From positions 868,001-932,000 of the forward strand of contig NZ_LT629689.1 of NCBI RefSeq assembly GCF_900102035.1: a DNA stretch of 64,000 bases, written 5' to 3'. Positions 55,806 to 62,671 of this stretch are shown piece by piece. Made by a program: the position numbers and the translations under genes. The stretch's first letter is position 1, and each line of letters begins with the position of its first letter. The notes below the pieces were generated by a model. That model ran no database searches. It was not told the DNA's origin and saw only the letters and a list, made by a program, of their open reading frames with translations. The DNA comes from Pseudomonas extremaustralis. Its GTDB lineage: Bacteria > Pseudomonadota > Gammaproteobacteria > Pseudomonadales > Pseudomonadaceae.

Positions 55806-56579
55806 CTAGAACTTCAGCATCGGCGGGGCGGGCTGATCCGTCGGACTGACCACCGCATAGTTGTAGCCGGCGCCGGACCAATACTGGGCCTGCAGCCCAT
55901 CGGCGCTGCGGCTGCCACGGGGCAGGAAACCGTTGTCCGGTCCCGGCGGACGGATGTAGAAACTGATGCGCCGACCTTGCGGGTCTTCATACAGCACCAT
56001 GGCCGCAGCGCCTTGGTCGGTGGTGAGCAGGCGCCCGCTCACCGGGGTGAATCCTGCCGCGCTCAAGTCAGGCAGACGATGGGCGTGGCTGAAGTAACGA
56101 TCGAGCCAGGCTTGCATCGTGTCGCCGCCCTGGGTGTTGTAGTCGGCGGGCATGATGCCGTCCTGGGCAAACAGGCGGAACGCTTGCATCGCATCGGCCA
56201 TGGGCAGCAGGGGCGGCTCGGTGGCTTCGCGGGCATGCCAGCCGCCAAGGCCGCCAAGGCTGATGGCCACCAGCAGCAGCGCCGCCGTGGCGAAGTGGCG
56301 GCGCGACTGCTGCTTGATACGTTGACGAATCAGCGCTGGGTCCAGGTCCGGGTTGGCCGGCTGTTGCAGCGCACCGGCCAACGACGCGCGCAGCGCTTGC
56401 GCGTCCTGTTGCCAGGCGTGGACCTGGGCGGCGACATCGGGGTGGGCCGCCAAGTAGGTGTCAAGCACGTGCCGGTCGCTCTCCGGCAACTGGTGATCGA
56501 CGTAGGCATGCAAATCGCGTTCGCTGGGGGCAGGCTGATCATTTGAGTATCCGCAGGGAAGGGCTGGCGATTTCGCCAT
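55806..56579 (-). CDS. Anti-sigma factor
   Basis: 257 residues from the ATG at 56579, which overlaps the sigma gene end by 41 bp. The cytosolic N-terminus has the anti-sigma region with SERDLHAYVDHQLPESDRHVLDTYLAAHPDVAAQVHAW. One helix (FATAALLLVAISLGGLGGW) crosses the membrane; the periplasmic part ends with a domain containing FTPVSGRLLTTDQGAAAMVLYEDPQGRRISFYIRP, as in Pseudomonas anti-sigma proteins of the RsiW/ChrR-like type. It should hold the ECF sigma until a periplasmic signal arrives. Confidence 0.88.
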   Translation of the reverse strand: MAKSPALPCGYSNDQPAPSERDLHAYVDHQLPESDRHVLDTYLAAHPDVAAQVHAWQQDAQALRASLAGALQQPANPDLDPALIRQRIKQQSRRHFATAALLLVAISLGGLGGWHAREATEPPLLPMADAMQAFRLFAQDGIMPADYNTQGGDTMQAWLDRYFSHAHRLPDLSAAGFTPVSGRLLTTDQGAAAMVLYEDPQGRRISFYIRPPGPDNGFLPRGSRSADGLQAQYWSGAGYNYAVVSPTDQPAPPMLKF

Positions 56580-57045
56580 CGCTGAGTTGACGCAGGGCCT
56601 GGCGTGCCCGAGACAGGCGCGACATGACGGTACCGATCGGCACGTCAAGGATCTCGGCGACCTCCTTGTAGCTCAAGCCCTCGACCGAGACCCACAGCAA
56701 CAGGGCGCGTTGTTCGCTACCCAGTTGATCGAAGGCTTGCAGGGTCGACTGGGCGATCACTGTACGTTCCACCGACGGCTGCGCGTCATCACGGCCGGTG
56801 AAAAACTCCAACATGCGCCCATAGCGTCGGCTGCGGCGATGAGCGTCGAGAAACTGCCGGTACAGGATCGAGAACAGCCACGCGCGCAGATCGCCCTCGC
56901 TGCGTTTGTCGGCCCAGCGGCTGATCGCCCGTTCCAGGGTCGACTGCACCAGATCGTCGGCGCTGCTGACGTTACGGGTCAGGGACACGGCGAAGCGCCG
57001 CAGCCTGGGGATGAGTTCACGTAACGGTTCATCGAGTTCATGCAT
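56539..57045 (-). CDS. ECF-type RNA polymerase sigma factor
   Basis: 168 residues. Region 2 reads LTRNVSSADDLVQSTLERAI and WLFSILYRQFLDAHRR; region 4 reads RALLLWVSVEGLSYKEVAEILDVPIGTVMSRLSRARQAL. The next gene, overlapping by 41 bp, is its anti-sigma factor. It is divergent from the adenylation-enzyme operon across 199 bp and may control it. No FecI-type TonB receptor is adjacent. Confidence 0.93.
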   Translation of the reverse strand: MHELDEPLRELIPRLRRFAVSLTRNVSSADDLVQSTLERAISRWADKRSEGDLRAWLFSILYRQFLDAHRRSRRYGRMLEFFTGRDDAQPSVERTVIAQSTLQAFDQLGSEQRALLLWVSVEGLSYKEVAEILDVPIGTVMSRLSRARQALRQLSDGEIASPSLRILK

Positions 57046-57244
57046 GGGAGTGGGAGTCTAGCCGGTTGTGATGAGGTAGACGCTGGCCGTTGTAGGTTAT
57101 TCCACCTTCAGCAGAAAGAAATCTTACGCAGCACAAGTGGGAAAGCTCTGCATAGCTTGTGAGTCTGTAATCCCGGGTCCCGTCCTCTATCCACCCCCTT
57201 ACCTGCCGGCACTGAGTTGGCAGTGAAACAATGAGGGTGTGTCC

Positions 57245-58834
57245 ATGACGTTTTCACCAACCGATAAACCGTGTTTTTCCCGCCGTGCGCTCACTCACTT
57301 GCCGGATGCGCAACAGGTGCTTTTCGAACAGTGGGGATGTGGCCCGTCGGCCCGGCCGGGTTTCAGCAGCGTGCACCAGGCAGTCGAAATGCATGCGGCG
57401 CGGGCGCCCGAGGCGACGGCGGCGGTGGCTGCGGGTCAACGCATCAGCTATGGGCAACTCAACCGCCAGGCCAACCGCTTGGCCGCGCGGTTGATCGAGC
57501 AGGGGGTGGCACGCGGCGACACGGTGGCACTGTTCGTCGAGCGCTCGATCCCCATGCTGGTGGGGTTGCTCGCGGTGTTGAAGATTGGCGCGGCGTATGT
57601 GCCCCAGGACGCACGGATCGTGCCGCCGCTGCAACTGGCGATGGTCCTCGAAACCTTGACCGCCCCGGTGATATTGACCCTGTCGAACCTGCAAGCGTGT
57701 GTGCCCGAAGCGCAAGCGCAGCGGTGCCTGTGTCTCGATGCGTTTCTGGCCGAGGAGCCTTGGGTGGCCGAGGACAACGATCGGGTGTCGACCGCAGTCG
57801 ACCCGGACGACCTGTGTTTTGTGTTGTTCACCTCGGGCACCACTGGGCGGCCCAATGGCGTGCGTGTCAGCCATCGCAACCTGTGCAACATTTTACTGAC
57901 CGAGCCTGGGCGGATGGGCATGGCGCCGGGGCGCAACGTGGGGCAGATCCTCAATATCGGATTCGACATGGCCGCCTGGGAAATACTCGGCTGCCTGGCC
58001 CATGGCGCCACCCTGATAATTCGCGGCAAGGACATTGCACACACCGCCGCACAGTGTGACGTATTGATTGCCACGCCTTCGATCCTCGCCACCCTCGATC
58101 CGCAACGCTGCCCCGATCTCAAGGTGGTCGCGGTGGCCGGTGAGCCTTGTCCTCAAGGGCTGGCCGACCGCTGGGCCGCGCACTGTGACTTCTACAACGG
58201 TTGCGGTCCGACCGAAACCACCATCGTCAATACCTTGCACCGGCATGTGCCCGGCACGCCGTTGAGCATTGGCCGGCCGACACCCAATAACACCGTGTAT
58301 GTGCTCGACGCGCAGGGCCGCGCCTGTGAGCTGGGCGAAACCGGTGAAATGTGGGCAGGCGGTGCCGGTGTGACCGCAGGCTACCTGGGCAACGCCGAAC
58401 TGACTGCGCAGCGCTACCGGCCGGACCCTTTTCTGGGGGCCGGGGCCGTGATGTTTCGCACGCGGGACCTGGGGCGCTGGACCCGTGACGGGCAGCTCGA
58501 ACCCCTGGGACGTGTCGATGATCAGGTCAAGATTCGGGGCTTTCGCGTGGAACTGGACGCCGTATCTGTCGCGCTGGAGGCCGGCGACGGATGCGCGCGC
58601 GCGGTGGCGCTGAAACTCGACGAGCGCACTCTGGTCGCGTTCGTAACCCCCGCCAGCGCCGATATCGATGCTTGTCGGCATCAGTGCGAGCAGCGCCTGG
58701 CCTATTACTGCATGCCTCGGGCGATCTACGCCCTGGATCAACTCCCCCTGACCGCCAGGGGCAAGGTGGATAAAGCGCAGTTACTGCACTGGGCACGGCA
58801 ACGACAGGACGTGAAGGAGATCGGCGATGTTTGA
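57245..58834 (+). CDS. Stand-alone amino-acid adenylation enzyme (NRPS A-domain type)
   Basis: 529 residues from the ATG at 57245 (GAGG upstream). Core motifs are A3 LFTSGTTGRPNGV (196-206; Asn where Lys is usual), A4 GFDMAAWE with Asp241, which in NRPS enzymes grips the amino group, A5 NGCGPTET, A7 RTRDLGRW (Arg for Gly), A8 DQVKIRGFRVELDAV and A10 LPLTARGK with catalytic Lys507. No carrier, condensation or thioesterase domain is present. It should form an aminoacyl-AMP and pass it to a carrier or nucleophile encoded elsewhere. The next gene overlaps its end by 8 bp. Confidence 0.88.
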   Translation: MTFSPTDKPCFSRRALTHLPDAQQVLFEQWGCGPSARPGFSSVHQAVEMHAARAPEATAAVAAGQRISYGQLNRQANRLAARLIEQGVARGDTVALFVERSIPMLVGLLAVLKIGAAYVPQDARIVPPLQLAMVLETLTAPVILTLSNLQACVPEAQAQRCLCLDAFLAEEPWVAEDNDRVSTAVDPDDLCFVLFTSGTTGRPNGVRVSHRNLCNILLTEPGRMGMAPGRNVGQILNIGFDMAAWEILGCLAHGATLIIRGKDIAHTAAQCDVLIATPSILATLDPQRCPDLKVVAVAGEPCPQGLADRWAAHCDFYNGCGPTETTIVNTLHRHVPGTPLSIGRPTPNNTVYVLDAQGRACELGETGEMWAGGAGVTAGYLGNAELTAQRYRPDPFLGAGAVMFRTRDLGRWTRDGQLEPLGRVDDQVKIRGFRVELDAVSVALEAGDGCARAVALKLDERTLVAFVTPASADIDACRHQCEQRLAYYCMPRAIYALDQLPLTARGKVDKAQLLHWARQRQDVKEIGDV

Positions 58835-60125
58835 GGCCTTGACCCGCACGCCGATCCCGCCGAAGTCGACCCTGTGGCGCAGGGTGTCGGCGCTGCCCCT
58901 GTTTTCCTATTACCACCGGCTTTTCGCCTTGGTCATGGCCTGCAATGCAGCGGTTCTGTGGCTGGGGCCGGGCATACAGGCCATGGGCCTGGAACGTCTC
59001 TCGAGCCTGGTGCTGATCAACCTGTCGCTGGCGACATTGATCCGCCAGCAATACCTGATCAATGCGCTGTTCTGGTTGGCTACCCGCGTGCCGGTGGGCT
59101 GGCCGCTGGCGATCCGGCGCCGGGTGGCGAAGGTCTATCACTTCGGCGGTTTGCACAGCGGCGCTGCCCTGGCGGCCACCGGCTGGTTCGTCGCCATGGT
59201 CTGGGTACAGGTGCTGATGCACGTGCGTGAGCCTGGCAGTGTTTCGTCCCTGCGGCTGTGGCTCAGTGGCGGCTTGATGGCCTTGCTGCTGTCGATGGTG
59301 ATCATGGCGTTGCCGTGGGTACGAGGCCGTTTTCACAATGGTTTCGAACGCGTTCACCGGTTCGCCGGCTGGAGCGTATTGCTGGTGTTCTGGGGGATGA
59401 CGTTGCTGGCGCCCGCCGAAGGTTCGGCGAACCCGTTGTACAGCGGCACGTTTTGGATGCTGGTGGTGCTGAGCCTGAGCGTCGCCTTGCCATGGCTGCG
59501 CCTGCGTAAAGTGCCGATCGCTACGGTGCGGCCGTCCGGGCATGCGGTCATCGTGCGATTCACCCACACCACGCCCTTTACCGGTTCTTCCACCGCCATC
59601 AGCCGGAGCCCGCTGCTGGAGTGGCATTCATTCGCCAATATTCCTGCGCCGGGCCAACCGGGGTTTCGCCTGATCATTTCCCGGGCCGGGGATTGGACGG
59701 GGCAGTTCATCGAGCAGTTGCCATCCCATGTGTGGGTCAAAGGGATCACCACGGCTGGGGTCGCGAATGTGGAAACGCTGTTCAAGTCGGTGCTGTACAT
59801 CGCCACCGGCAGCGGTATCGGCCCGGTATTGCCGCACTTGCTGGCCGGCAACGTGCCGCTGCATCTGATCTGGTCGACCCGCAGTCCGCGACAAACCTAC
59901 GGTGACGCGTTGGTGGAGGAGATCCTGCAGGCCCAGCCGCAGGCGCTGATCTGGGACACCGATGCGCGTGGCAAGCCTGATCTTGTGCAACTGGCCTGTG
60001 GCGCCGTCCAGGCATTCGGGGTGGAGGCGGTGATCTGCATTGCCAACCAGGGTTTGACCCGGCGTGTGGTGCAAGAGTTGGAAGCCCGGGGAATCCCTGC
60101 CTATGGCGCGATCTGGGATTCGTGA
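58827..60125 (+). CDS. Ferric-reductase-like membrane flavoprotein
   Basis: 432 residues; GGAG lies before the ATG inside the end of the previous gene. About six helices occupy residues 30-225, with His pairs at 105/110 (YHFGGLH) and 170/177 (FHNGFERVH) that could hold heme. The C-terminal half is a ferredoxin-NADP-reductase-like module: WHSFANIP (266-273) in place of the usual RPYS flavin motif, and LYIATGSGIGPVLPHLL (324-340) for NAD(P). It should move electrons from NAD(P)H through flavin into the membrane. The flavin motif is unusual. Exact role unknown. Confidence 0.82.
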   Translation: MFEALTRTPIPPKSTLWRRVSALPLFSYYHRLFALVMACNAAVLWLGPGIQAMGLERLSSLVLINLSLATLIRQQYLINALFWLATRVPVGWPLAIRRRVAKVYHFGGLHSGAALAATGWFVAMVWVQVLMHVREPGSVSSLRLWLSGGLMALLLSMVIMALPWVRGRFHNGFERVHRFAGWSVLLVFWGMTLLAPAEGSANPLYSGTFWMLVVLSLSVALPWLRLRKVPIATVRPSGHAVIVRFTHTTPFTGSSTAISRSPLLEWHSFANIPAPGQPGFRLIISRAGDWTGQFIEQLPSHVWVKGITTAGVANVETLFKSVLYIATGSGIGPVLPHLLAGNVPLHLIWSTRSPRQTYGDALVEEILQAQPQALIWDTDARGKPDLVQLACGAVQAFGVEAVICIANQGLTRRVVQELEARGIPAYGAIWDS

Positions 60126-60167
60126 AACGGCGTTGTGGGTCAAACAAATCAATCTGTGGAGGTGTCT

Positions 60168-60932
60168 ATGAATCTCGTTATCGAGCGTCACGATCGGGTG
60201 GTGCTGGTGCGGCTCAATCGGCCGCAAGTCAAGAATGCGCTGAGTTCGGCATTGATGCGGGAACTGCTTTCGTGCCTGGAGGCACTGGACCAGGATCCCC
60301 AGGTCGGCTGCTTTGTCGTCACCGGTACGGCCGATTATTTCGCCGCAGGGGCCGACATCAAGGAAATGAGCGGCAAGTCCTATCTGGACATGTTGAACGA
60401 AGACTATTTTGTCGGCTGGGAGGCCTTTACCCGTCTGCGCACCCCGACCATTGCCGCCGTCGCTGGGTATGCGTTCGGCGGAGGTTGTGAACTGGCGCTG
60501 ATGTGCGACATGATTTTTGCGGCCGATACCGCCACGTTCGCTCAACCGGAAATCAAGCTGGGCGTGATGCCGGGCATGGGCGCGACCCAGCGTTTGACCG
60601 GGCTGATCGGCAAGGCCAAGGCCATGGACCTGGTGCTGACCGGTCGACCGATGACGGCTCGCGAGGCCGAGCAGGCAGGCTTGGTATCCCGTGTCTATCC
60701 AGCAGCGACATTGTTAGCCCAGGCGCTGGAGGTGGCGGCGCAGATCGCCGGGTTCTCCCGAACGGCGACGCGGGCAGCGCGGGAGGCCGTGGCGCAGTCC
60801 CTGGAGCTGGGCTTGCATGAGGGCGTACGCCTGGAACGTCGGCTGTTTCATGGCTTGTTTGCCACCCCGGACCAGCATGAAGGCATGCAGGCCTTTTTGA
60901 GCAAGCGGCACGCATCCTTCAACCAGTCGTAA
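60168..60932 (+). CDS. Enoyl-CoA hydratase/isomerase family protein (crotonase)
   Basis: 254 residues from the ATG at 60168, with GGAGG 5 bp upstream. Crotonase motifs are AAGADIKEM (oxyanion hole), GGGCELALMCD with Glu108, and QPEIKLGVMPGMGATQRL with Glu128. The two Glu are 20 residues apart, as in rat mitochondrial hydratase, so water addition to an enoyl thioester is possible. It is the third gene of the adenylation/flavoprotein operon (42 bp gap). In that company it may act on a carrier-bound or CoA-bound product and not in ordinary beta-oxidation. Confidence 0.9.
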   Translation: MNLVIERHDRVVLVRLNRPQVKNALSSALMRELLSCLEALDQDPQVGCFVVTGTADYFAAGADIKEMSGKSYLDMLNEDYFVGWEAFTRLRTPTIAAVAGYAFGGGCELALMCDMIFAADTATFAQPEIKLGVMPGMGATQRLTGLIGKAKAMDLVLTGRPMTAREAEQAGLVSRVYPAATLLAQALEVAAQIAGFSRTATRAAREAVAQSLELGLHEGVRLERRLFHGLFATPDQHEGMQAFLSKRHASFNQS

Positions 60933-61052
60933 GGCGACGGGAACCCCCGGCAATTCATCTGCCATGAAAAAACTACAGTGAATGGGGAATAAACCTACAT
61001 GGGATTCGTCCCATAGCACTTTCCCTTGCGGCCACGTGCCCTGGAGCTATTC

Positions 61053-62135
61053 ATGGTAGATCATTCATCGCCGCCCAAACCGCCCCTCAGCACCGCCAGC
61101 CGGGTCATCAGGCTGGCGTGTATTGCCGGGGTGGTGGCGGTCATGGCCGGGGCATTCGCCTACGTCAACGGCACCCTCGACCCACAGCGCCTGCGTCCGA
61201 AAACCCTGGTCAATGCCCTGGAAACCAACAACGGCGTGCACCCGGGGTTCCGGCGTAACCACGCCAAGGGCGTATGCGTCGCCGGGTATTTCGAGAGCAG
61301 CCCTGAGGCGCGGGCCTACTCCAGCGCCCAGGTGTTCAGCGAAGCCAGGACCCCGGTGGTCGGCCGTTTCGCTTTGCCCAGCGGCAACCCCTATGCGCCG
61401 GACAGCAGCGTGCCGATCCGTAGTTTCGCCGTGCAGTTCAACCAGGCCAACGGCCAGCAATGGCGCACCGGGATGAACAGCATGCCAGTGTTCCCGGTGG
61501 GCACGCCCGAGGCGTTCTACCAGATGCTCAAGGCCGGCGCACCGGACCCGGCCACCGGCAAGCCCAACCCCGGGAACATGCCGGCGTTTTTTGCTGCCCA
61601 TCCCGAGACTGCGGCGTTTCTGGCGTGGGTCAAGACCGCCAAGCCTTCGGCCAGCTATGCCACCGAAACCTATAACGGCATCAATGCCTTTTACCTGGTG
61701 GGTGCCGATGGCAAGCGTCAGGCGGTGCGCTGGGGTGTCGTCCCGCAGAGCCAGGACGCGCCGGATGCTGTTGCGCCAGCCGGCAATGATTTTCTCGAAA
61801 AAGACCTGGTGCAGCGCCTGGCGTCAGGACCGTTGCGTTGGCAGTTGAACATGACCCTGGCCAACCCCGGCGACCCACTGGATGACGCGAGCAAGACTTG
61901 GACCGGCGAGCACAAGGTGCTGAACGCCGGCACCCTGGTCCTGCAAAGCAGCCAGCCCCAGGCGGATGGCGATTGCCGCGACATCAACTTCGACCCGCTG
62001 GTGTTACCGAGCGGTATCGAAGCCTCCAATGACCCGCTGCTGGCCGCGCGTTCGGCAGCTTACGCCAGTTCCTACCTGCGTCGTGCCGGTGAAGTCAGCC
62101 CGTTGCACAGCGCGCCCCAGGAGTCGAAGCAATGA
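61053..62135 (+). CDS. SrpA-like periplasmic catalase-related protein
   Basis: 360 residues from the ATG at 61053 (GGAG 6 bp upstream). An N-terminal helix (LACIAGVVAVMAGAFAYVNG) anchors or exports it. The mini-catalase body keeps the distal His in GVHPGFRRNHAKGVCVAGYF and the proximal heme Tyr region ARSAAYASSYLRR. Family members have catalase or peroxidase activity. The stop overlaps the following cytochrome b561 start by 4 bp, a pairing common in proteobacteria. Confidence 0.9.
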   Translation: MVDHSSPPKPPLSTASRVIRLACIAGVVAVMAGAFAYVNGTLDPQRLRPKTLVNALETNNGVHPGFRRNHAKGVCVAGYFESSPEARAYSSAQVFSEARTPVVGRFALPSGNPYAPDSSVPIRSFAVQFNQANGQQWRTGMNSMPVFPVGTPEAFYQMLKAGAPDPATGKPNPGNMPAFFAAHPETAAFLAWVKTAKPSASYATETYNGINAFYLVGADGKRQAVRWGVVPQSQDAPDAVAPAGNDFLEKDLVQRLASGPLRWQLNMTLANPGDPLDDASKTWTGEHKVLNAGTLVLQSSQPQADGDCRDINFDPLVLPSGIEASNDPLLAARSAAYASSYLRRAGEVSPLHSAPQESKQ

Positions 62136-62671
62136 ATGCCCAACCCCGGTTTTTCGCGCCCCTGGCGCGCCTGTTGCACTGGCTGATGGCGCTGATGGTC
62201 ATCGCCATGCTGTTTATCGGCGCGGGTCTCGCGGCGTCCGTTTCCGAGCGGCATGAATGGTTGATCCACCTGCACAAGCCGTTGGGGATTGCGATCCTGG
62301 CGCTGGTGATCGTGCGGCTGGCGGTGCGTTTCTCCACGCGCCAACCGCCGTTGCCCAGCGATCTGCCGCTGTGGCAGGTGTTGGCGGCCAAGGCGTCCCA
62401 CCTGCTGCTGTATGCCTTGATGCTGGTGCTGCCGCTGTTGGGTTGGGCAATGATTTCGGCGGCGGGCGACCCGGTGATGCTCAGCAGTTCCCTGCGGTTG
62501 CCCGCGCTGGTGACGGCCAATGCGCCGCTGTTCGCCGTACTGCGCAAGGCCCATGGATTTTTGGCTTATGTGCTGTTCCTGACGGTACTGGTGCACTTGG
62601 CGGCAGCGTTGTTCCATGGGTTGATTCGGCGTGACGGCGTACTGCAAAGCATGACCGGCACCAAGGACTGA
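62132..62671 (+). CDS. Cytochrome b561, partner of the catalase-like protein
   Basis: 179 residues with four helices and heme His in LLHWLMALMVIAMLFIGAG, LHKPLGIAILALVIVRL, KASHLLLYALMLVLPLLGW and AHGFLAYVLFLTVLVHLAAALFHG. It should pass electrons from quinol to the periplasmic SrpA-like heme protein. Its ATGA start overlap with the catalase gene makes them one translational unit. Confidence 0.93.
   Translation: MNAQPRFFAPLARLLHWLMALMVIAMLFIGAGLAASVSERHEWLIHLHKPLGIAILALVIVRLAVRFSTRQPPLPSDLPLWQVLAAKASHLLLYALMLVLPLLGWAMISAAGDPVMLSSSLRLPALVTANAPLFAVLRKAHGFLAYVLFLTVLVHLAAALFHGLIRRDGVLQSMTGTKD

Follow-up and report, generated by a model that had tools for sequence, protein, structure and literature searches.

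Three closely spaced genes of Pseudomonas extremaustralis, coding for an adenylation enzyme that lacks a carrier domain (A), a membrane flavoprotein (F) and a crotonase (E), raise the question of what such a set of enzymes makes and whether it has a known relative. The genes lie in a window of 64,000 nucleotides (nt), which corresponds to bases 868001-932000 of the single-contig 6.67 Mb genome (contig NZ_LT629689.1). An earlier note, made from the DNA letters alone, had placed the three genes at the coordinates listed below, and these were confirmed. The same note had recognised no characterised cluster, and here the analysis led to a different answer, as a relative was found in the fungal proteins TmpB, TmpL and ChNPS12 (PMC4804170, PMC2766074, PMC2823734). 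The bacterial trio looks, as judged by sequence, like a split form of this poorly understood fungal membrane enzyme. The explanation favoured here, which we consider likely, is that the operon represents a split bacterial TmpB/TmpL/ChNPS12 system in which A, F and E generally work together.

57245..58834, + strand: gene A, stand-alone adenylation enzyme of the nonribosomal peptide synthetase (NRPS) type, 529 amino acids (aa), with AMP-binding and TIGR01733 matches
58827..60125, + strand: gene F, TmpA-type membrane flavoprotein, 432 aa, with GSGIGP at residues 328-333 and the C-terminus AYGAIWDS
60168..60932, + strand: gene E, crotonase resembling enoyl-coenzyme A (CoA) hydratases, 254 aa, with an ECH_1 match and both catalytic Glu residues

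The start of A is an ATG with GAGG 8 nt upstream, while an in-frame GTG at 57239 would give a protein of 531 aa. A and F overlap by 8 nt and the gap between F and E is 42 nt; hence, a carrier gene would not fit between the three genes of the window.

Fungal relatives of A and F and recurrence of the trio

TmpB, TmpL and ChNPS12 are described as fusions of an adenylation domain with a flavoprotein of the TmpA type that take part in conidiation signalling or in redox homeostasis (PMC4804170, PMC2766074, PMC2823734). When A and F were joined as one query and the matches scored on F, fused proteins of both bacteria and fungi came up; with an Aspergillus terreus member as query, the matches included AN9129 and an Aspergillus fumigatus protein of 994 aa. 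AN9129 is the TmpB of A. nidulans, given there as 989 aa (PMC4804170), and 994 aa is the length given for A. fumigatus TmpL (PMC2766074). The database gene model AN9129.2 has 950 aa and is devoid of part of the adenylation domain, so that TmpB itself yields no pocket code. A showed 44-49% identity to 13 of 14 chosen fungal members and 41.5% to the other one, as against 29-36% (up to 38% as listed) to 15 NRPS adenylation domains of its own genome. In a quick tree of A, the bacterial members, the fungal members and the own NRPS domains formed one group each with starred support; two of the own NRPS domains were on long branches, and alpha-aminoadipate reductases were outside the tree. Compared with these 15 own-genome domains, A grouped with the fungal family and not with ordinary NRPS adenylation domains. 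The F tree likewise placed the 16 fungal rows in one group. The shared searches, the identities and the trees of A and F together indicate that A is the counterpart of the adenylation half and F that of the C-terminal half of TmpB/TmpL, i.e., that the two are the putative halves of the TmpB/TmpL/ChNPS12 protein. The identity of the bacterial genes with the fungal system is considered highly probable.

F was found in 7/293 genomes of an order-wide sample (strong matches), 23/298 genomes of a genus sample and 4/398 genomes of a phylum-wide sample, the own genome being included each time; weak matches (E value near 1e-3) in two genomes of the order sample and six of the genus sample were dropped. 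The order and genus searches provided 28 foreign loci, with A in all 28 (cut by a contig end in one and matching in two pieces in another) and E in 21. Both genomes that were new in the phylum-wide sample carried A-F-E. A one-genome-per-species scan with two F peptide patterns identified 392 relatives, and the best 80 of these were analysed; they are the most similar ones, more distant relatives fall outside the sample, and the sample sets overlap in part. By tblastn, A preceded or was fused to F in 80/80 of these loci, and E followed A-F in 69 of the 78 decidable ones. The order A-F-E was present in 48 of 51 non-Pseudomonas loci (two end before E would be visible and one, L141, is without E) and in 21 of 29 Pseudomonas loci, the remaining 8 having A-F alone. 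The earlier note had proposed such a co-occurrence search as its check and had taken rare neighbourhood as its refutation; the three families turned out to be widely neighbouring, and the trio is more than a local coincidence. In loci L047, L053, L054, L063, L064, L067 and L069, A and F were kept with no E found beside them, and in L054 the A gene matched in two pieces.

The trio occurs in Pseudomonadota, Bacteroidota, Actinomycetota, Chloroflexota and one cyanobacterial bin, and organisms with F relatives include Vibrio, Grimontia, Endozoicomonas, Paraburkholderia, Caballeronia, Ruegeria, Aquimarina, Streptomyces, Micromonospora, Herpetosiphonaceae and a cyanobacterial bin. In Aspergilli, an enoyl-CoA hydratase/isomerase gene is reported to adjoin the tmpB/tmpL-type gene. 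As most bacterial loci also have a linked crotonase gene of this kind, the full trio is probably common to bacteria and Aspergilli.

A and F were fused in 15 of the 50 loci in which a simple open reading frame (ORF) picker found F; the picker missed F in 6/56 loci, and the presence counts were therefore taken from tblastn. Separate, adjacent A and F genes were seen in 31 loci and overlapped by 4 or 1 nt in 19 of these. Fused proteins were found in Bacteroidota, Burkholderiaceae, a Pantoea record and fungi. A quick F tree of 96 chosen rows requires no fewer than 10 changes between the fused, split and other states, so A and F seem to have been joined or split repeatedly.

Sequence features of A, F and E

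A matched AMP-binding (1.5e-70) and TIGR01733 (AA-adenyl-dom, above its cut-off), and no carrier (T) or condensation (C) domain was detected in it by Pfam and NCBIfam scans. The earlier description of A as an adenylation domain that retains the amino-group-binding Asp (D243) and the catalytic Lys (K509) and is devoid of a carrier domain therefore holds. The deviations from consensus noted earlier in motifs A3 and A7 are likewise real and, in the aligned rows, a trait of the bacterial family. The A3 site N206 is Asn in 20/20 Pseudomonas rows, 58/58 other bacterial loci and 83/91 further fused proteins, whereas the equivalent fungal site is Lys in 82/87 rows (5 gaps). Similarly, the A7 site R409 is Arg in 20/20 Pseudomonas, 54/58 other bacterial and 73/91 further fused rows as against Gly in 87/87 fungal rows. 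This difference between bacterial and fungal rows explains the motif deviations.

The substrate pocket of A reads DMWIAAGIVK at ten positions, which follow the PheA numbering as mapped by eye on the motifs. The alignment comprised 256 rows (20 Pseudomonas, 58 other bacterial, 91 further fused and 87 fungal or fungal-like); ORF rows were kept if they had >430 aligned residues and >38% identity to A, by which two DSL rows dropped out, and database proteins entered only if >900 aa. The family code was DMWIAA[GSAC]I[VI]K, with D, M, W, I, A, A, I and K almost constant from bacteria to fungi, position seven being mostly G, S, A or C and position nine V or I. Exceptions were seen at position five, which is I in 8/58 other bacterial and 6/91 further fused rows, and the fungal rows include gaps and a few odd gene models. 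A pocket that is nearly constant across kingdoms suggests one substrate, which is probably common to the bacterial and fungal members. This substrate is probably hydrophobic, and the hydrophobic pocket is in line with the PheA-based model of the TmpB authors.

The earlier note had also advised looking for a free carrier protein elsewhere in the genome. Such proteins are indeed present, with 20 PP-binding matches, all outside the window. PP-binding matches were found in 17/17 checked genomes with A and F: Endozoicomonas arenosclerae, which has the whole trio, showed three in all, three other genomes showed six and the rest 9 to 68. With the trio present in a genome having three PP-binding matches, a dedicated NRPS carrier may not be needed. 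A carrier-motif scan that found 8/8 known carriers detected no recurring short carrier gene near F in the 80 loci; an isolated carrier motif in a short frame near F was seen in 10/80. Except in L138, none of the measured loci had gaps within the trio wide enough for a carrier gene.

F showed about six hydrophobic segments after merging, the GSGIGP motif was present in at least 97% of rows and the C-terminus ends in IWDS; F is thus predicted to be a TmpA-type membrane oxidoreductase using flavin adenine dinucleotide (FAD) and nicotinamide adenine dinucleotide (phosphate) [NAD(P)]. No model matched F at an E value of 0.001 in the Pfam set used (which is without PF26733) or in NCBIfam, and the F relatives listed in the protein database carry the Pfam accession PF26733. 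Neither Ferric_reduct nor FAD_binding_8 was detected in F at cut-off, and PF01794 was touched by 2/12 members with a best E value of 0.94. Among 96 rows, the candidate heme ligands H105 and H170 were invariant. The spacing of the His pairs in F is 5 (H105/H110) and 7 (H170/H177), as against 14 and 13 in aligned two-heme ferric reductases. The heme-suitable His pairs proposed by the earlier note are conserved, yet two pairs set 13-14 residues apart in helices 3 and 5, as expected of two-heme ferric reductases, were not seen in F. These spacings suggest that F likely has one heme or none and is unlikely to have a classical two-heme path. Of the supply of electrons at the membrane suggested earlier, the classical two-heme transmembrane path appears incomplete in F. 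An assignment of F as an ordinary ferric reductase was rejected in view of the missing match at cut-off, the wrong His spacing and the weak profile alignment with such enzymes. In many of the search matches (P0222-P0241), the F flavoprotein is joined to a CRP-like domain for cyclic-nucleotide binding, and four such proteins formed one group on the F tree.

E has the sequence characteristics of an enoyl-CoA hydratase, i.e., a crotonase fold with two catalytic Glu residues. As proposed earlier, both Glu are present, E108 and E128 being found in 53/53 triad rows (some loci twice). E scored 363.2 bits against PRK05862, below the equivalog cut-off of 396. Twelve crotonases were found in the own genome and seven were compared with the triad E rows; the window's E was a better match than these for 49/52 triad E rows (some loci twice). 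This best-match count alone was used, the crotonase tree having very long paralogue branches and weak support.

Genes surrounding the trio

A histidine kinase and a response regulator are located beside the trio in 11/56 loci, with the nearer gene within 260 nt, and in two of three Grimontia loci they are 3-7 kb away. Two-component genes merely within 9 kb were not used as support, as a rough estimate gave many expected by chance; support was drawn from direct neighbourhood and from comparing the sensor halves. The sensor halves of ten trio-near kinases, spanning Gammaproteobacteria and a Tenacibaculum bin, were homologous in 45/45 pairs (E value 2e-14 or better). The ten had been pre-clustered by whole-protein similarity, so that the 45/45 is not independent by itself, and a search of five genomes with an Endozoicomonas kinase served as control. 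Among the matches listed, four of the five genomes had one far-reaching match each in the sensor half, starting at residues 1, 1, 6 and 39, and by their coordinates these are the trio-linked kinases. The other kinase matches listed, including those of the window's genome, start at residue 156 or later; the window's genome thus seems, among the matches listed, to be without the trio-linked sensor type. No Pfam sensor domain was matched in the scanned trio-linked kinases (L109, L104 and L073). What the trio-linked kinase senses could be the product, the substrate or a stress. Coordinates of the kinase and regulator genes beside the trio are L109:8794-11127, L103:11162-13449, L127:4878-7118, L140:11084-13398, L136:4978-7186 and L073:2840-5032.

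Other recurring neighbours, named by the scanned member of each cluster, were a DUF6733-type gene just after E in 14 Bacteroidota loci (L110-L113, L115, L120, L122, L129, L131, L133, L134, L138, L144 and L150), a CRP-family regulator upstream in 11/56 loci, and a DUF6502-type gene, divergent and upstream of A or F, in five alphaproteobacterial loci (L107, L141, L145, L149 and L153).

In the window, the trio is flanked by the following features.

55806..56648, - strand: probable anti-sigma factor, outside the trio (weak NCBIfam match below cut-off; longest ORF)
56539..57045, - strand: extracytoplasmic function (ECF) sigma factor, divergent, outside the trio (profile matches, locus comparison)
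60985..61010, + strand: ECF-type promoter-like site GGGAATA-N14-TCGTC before the catalase gene
61053..62135, + strand: catalase-family protein, outside the trio (Pfam match, locus comparison)
62132..62671, + strand: cytochrome b561, outside the trio (Pfam match, locus comparison)

The true start of the anti-sigma gene is probably further in than that of the longest ORF, as homologues mostly align in frame only from about residue 41. In 18 of the 22 Pseudomonas loci besides the window, the cassette of trio genes has the divergent ECF sigma/anti-sigma pair on one side and the catalase/b561 pair on the other; one of the remaining loci is cut by a contig end, and L054, L064 and L067 carry the cassette elsewhere. 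Catalase loci were searched in 59 Pseudomonas genomes and the 30 best were fetched. In 27/30 there was no cassette, and the ECF gene was directly divergent at 119-289 bp from the catalase gene; 3/30 carry the cassette. Catalase and cytochrome b561 were accordingly rejected as members of the pathway, and from this adjacency and the ECF-type site before the catalase gene, their genes seem to form a unit with the sigma factor, separate from the trio. When five empty sites were compared with the flanks of the window, they matched on both sides, mostly at coding ends, so that the cassette borders are approximate. The pattern GGGAATA-N14-TCGTC had 1 match vs 0.03 expected, a figure that is not independent since the pattern was drawn after seeing the site and the empty sites. 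The ECF sigma gene (56539-57045) has a conserved divergent intergenic region, which together with the GGGAATA...TCGTC sites is possibly the autoregulated promoter set of the Pseudomonas catalase/b561 unit. A sigma-70-type promoter was looked for before A, and none was found.

Proposed function, rival explanations and known systems

The joint activation-redox-hydration pathway of the earlier note remains the natural reading of three widely neighbouring families with a carrier-free A. In the simplest scheme, whose order is conjectural, the substrate would be adenylated and moved onto CoA or a similar thiol, after which F would carry out a redox step and E would add or remove water. A would probably adenylate a hydrophobic, perhaps Phe-like, amino acid. 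The acyl-AMP might then pass to CoA or another thiol and not to a dedicated NRPS carrier, F may perform, with NAD(P)H and FAD at the membrane, a redox step on the activated compound, and E might add or remove water at the alpha-beta bond of the thioester; each of these three steps is about evenly balanced. That the small product is a signal or stress metabolite is somewhat more tentative. The signal reading is backed by the homologous kinase sensor halves and by the restriction of the far-reaching matches to the trio-linked kinases in four genomes, among the matches listed. A bolder version, an ancient carrier-free route of bacteria and fungi in which a fixed hydrophobic amino acid would be turned into a small extracellular signal, read in some bacteria by the adjacent dedicated kinase and corresponding in Aspergillus to the conidiation signal of TmpB, is rather unlikely.

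Several observations weigh against the split-system explanation. The pocket code of A is not known to match any code for a defined substrate, and 'Phe-like' is consequently a guess. Beside A-F, no E is present in the 8 Pseudomonas loci or in L141, while L138 has a divergent crotonase in its place, with 35% identity and 415 nt away; E is thus dispensable or replaceable. Two of the four candidate heme ligands of F are not invariant (H110 in 94/96 and H177 in 91/96 rows), and the FAD/NAD half of F aligns only weakly with four bacterial ferric reductases (hhalign E value 5.5e-4, probability 30). The sole biochemistry seen for any member is the flavin binding of a TmpL fragment (PMC2766074). Furthermore, the pseudomonad adenylation domains analysed by Bushley and Turgeon grouped with alpha-aminoadipate reductases (PMC2823734). 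A, for its part, scored 114.3 bits on TIGR03443 against a cut-off of 1030.1 and is without the T and reductase domains of such enzymes.

Among the rival explanations, the trio could be a redox device in which F handles electrons or oxygen like an NADPH oxidase or a quinone/ferric reductase, with A and E supplying a co-substrate or a lipid-like modifier; in that case, the oxidative-stress phenotypes seen in fungi upon mutation of tmpL would reflect the direct function. The weak resemblance of the FAD/NAD half of F to FAD_binding_8 ferric reductases, the higher H2O2 sensitivity of two fungi upon loss of TmpL (PMC4804170, PMC2766074) and the catalase and cytochrome b561 genes beside most Pseudomonas cassettes are in agreement with this. 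However, the His pairs of F are not spaced as in two-heme ferric reductases, conidia of the A. nidulans tmpB mutant were reported to be insensitive to H2O2 or menadione (PMC4804170, data not shown there), and the proximity of the catalase genes is unspecific, as they adjoin the ECF gene without any cassette in 27 of the 30 Pseudomonas catalase loci fetched. The redox device is considered improbable. We assign a similarly low probability to a tailoring unit, in which A would load in trans the carrier of an NRPS encoded elsewhere and F and E would modify the bound residue. Stand-alone adenylation domains acting in trans are known (PMC2823734), and PP-binding matches are available for such a role, with at least 3 in all 17 checked genomes with A and F. 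Against it stand the lack of a carrier-sized gap between the three genes in the loci measured except L138, the absence of a recurring short carrier gene near F in the motif scan, and the few PP-binding matches of E. arenosclerae and the three genomes with six.

The remaining rival, a catabolic mini beta-oxidation of an amino-acid-like or aryl acid in which A would be a CoA ligase, the flavoprotein F would oxidise, E would hydrate and no signal would be made, has the gene order ligase-flavoprotein-hydratase in its favour, along with the closeness of E to ordinary enoyl-CoA hydratases in its PRK05862 score. On the other hand, 0/11 annotated recurring neighbour clusters were a thiolase or dehydrogenase (annotated clusters only), the pocket of A is of the NRPS type and includes the Asp that binds the amino group, and catabolism alone accounts neither for the sensor kinase linked to the trio nor for the conidiation phenotype in fungi; this rival is held to be the least probable of the three. 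For the split TmpB/TmpL/ChNPS12 system, separate genes for adenylation, redox and crotonase functions make substrate, intermediate and product testable protein by protein in simple organisms. From the near-constant pocket, one and the same substrate is predicted for bacteria and fungi, and a reporter for the product may be available in the linked sensor kinase.

With respect to known systems, F resembles ferric reductases and NADPH oxidases (FAD_binding_8) in its FAD/NAD half, weakly, and in a membrane part of about six hydrophobic segments, but differs from them in having no Pfam match at cut-off and a His spacing of 5/7 instead of 14/13. TmpA of A. nidulans is the flavoprotein half, with its gene contiguous to that of the adenylate-forming enzyme AfeA (PMC4804170); AfeA, however, is a 4CL-like ligase and not an NRPS-type adenylation domain. 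Stand-alone bacterial adenylation domains of Hahella and Salinispora were placed within the ChNPS12 group by Bushley and Turgeon, whose account describes them as single domains, with a neighbouring flavoprotein or crotonase unmentioned in the parts consulted (PMC2823734). A 2009 account of TmpL described it as restricted to filamentous fungi (PMC2766074), and no paper describing the bacterial A-F-E operon was found among open-licence full texts. The closest known system remains TmpB/TmpL/ChNPS12 itself. The fungal protein is one polypeptide of about 1000 aa whereas the window has two overlapping genes, and most bacterial A proteins have Asn and Arg in A3 and A7 where fungal ones have Lys and Gly. 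Common to both are an NRPS-type adenylation domain, a TmpA-type flavoprotein with GSGIGP and the absence of T and C domains, and the A. fumigatus protein, with the code DMWIAACIIK, carries the same pocket code as the family of A.

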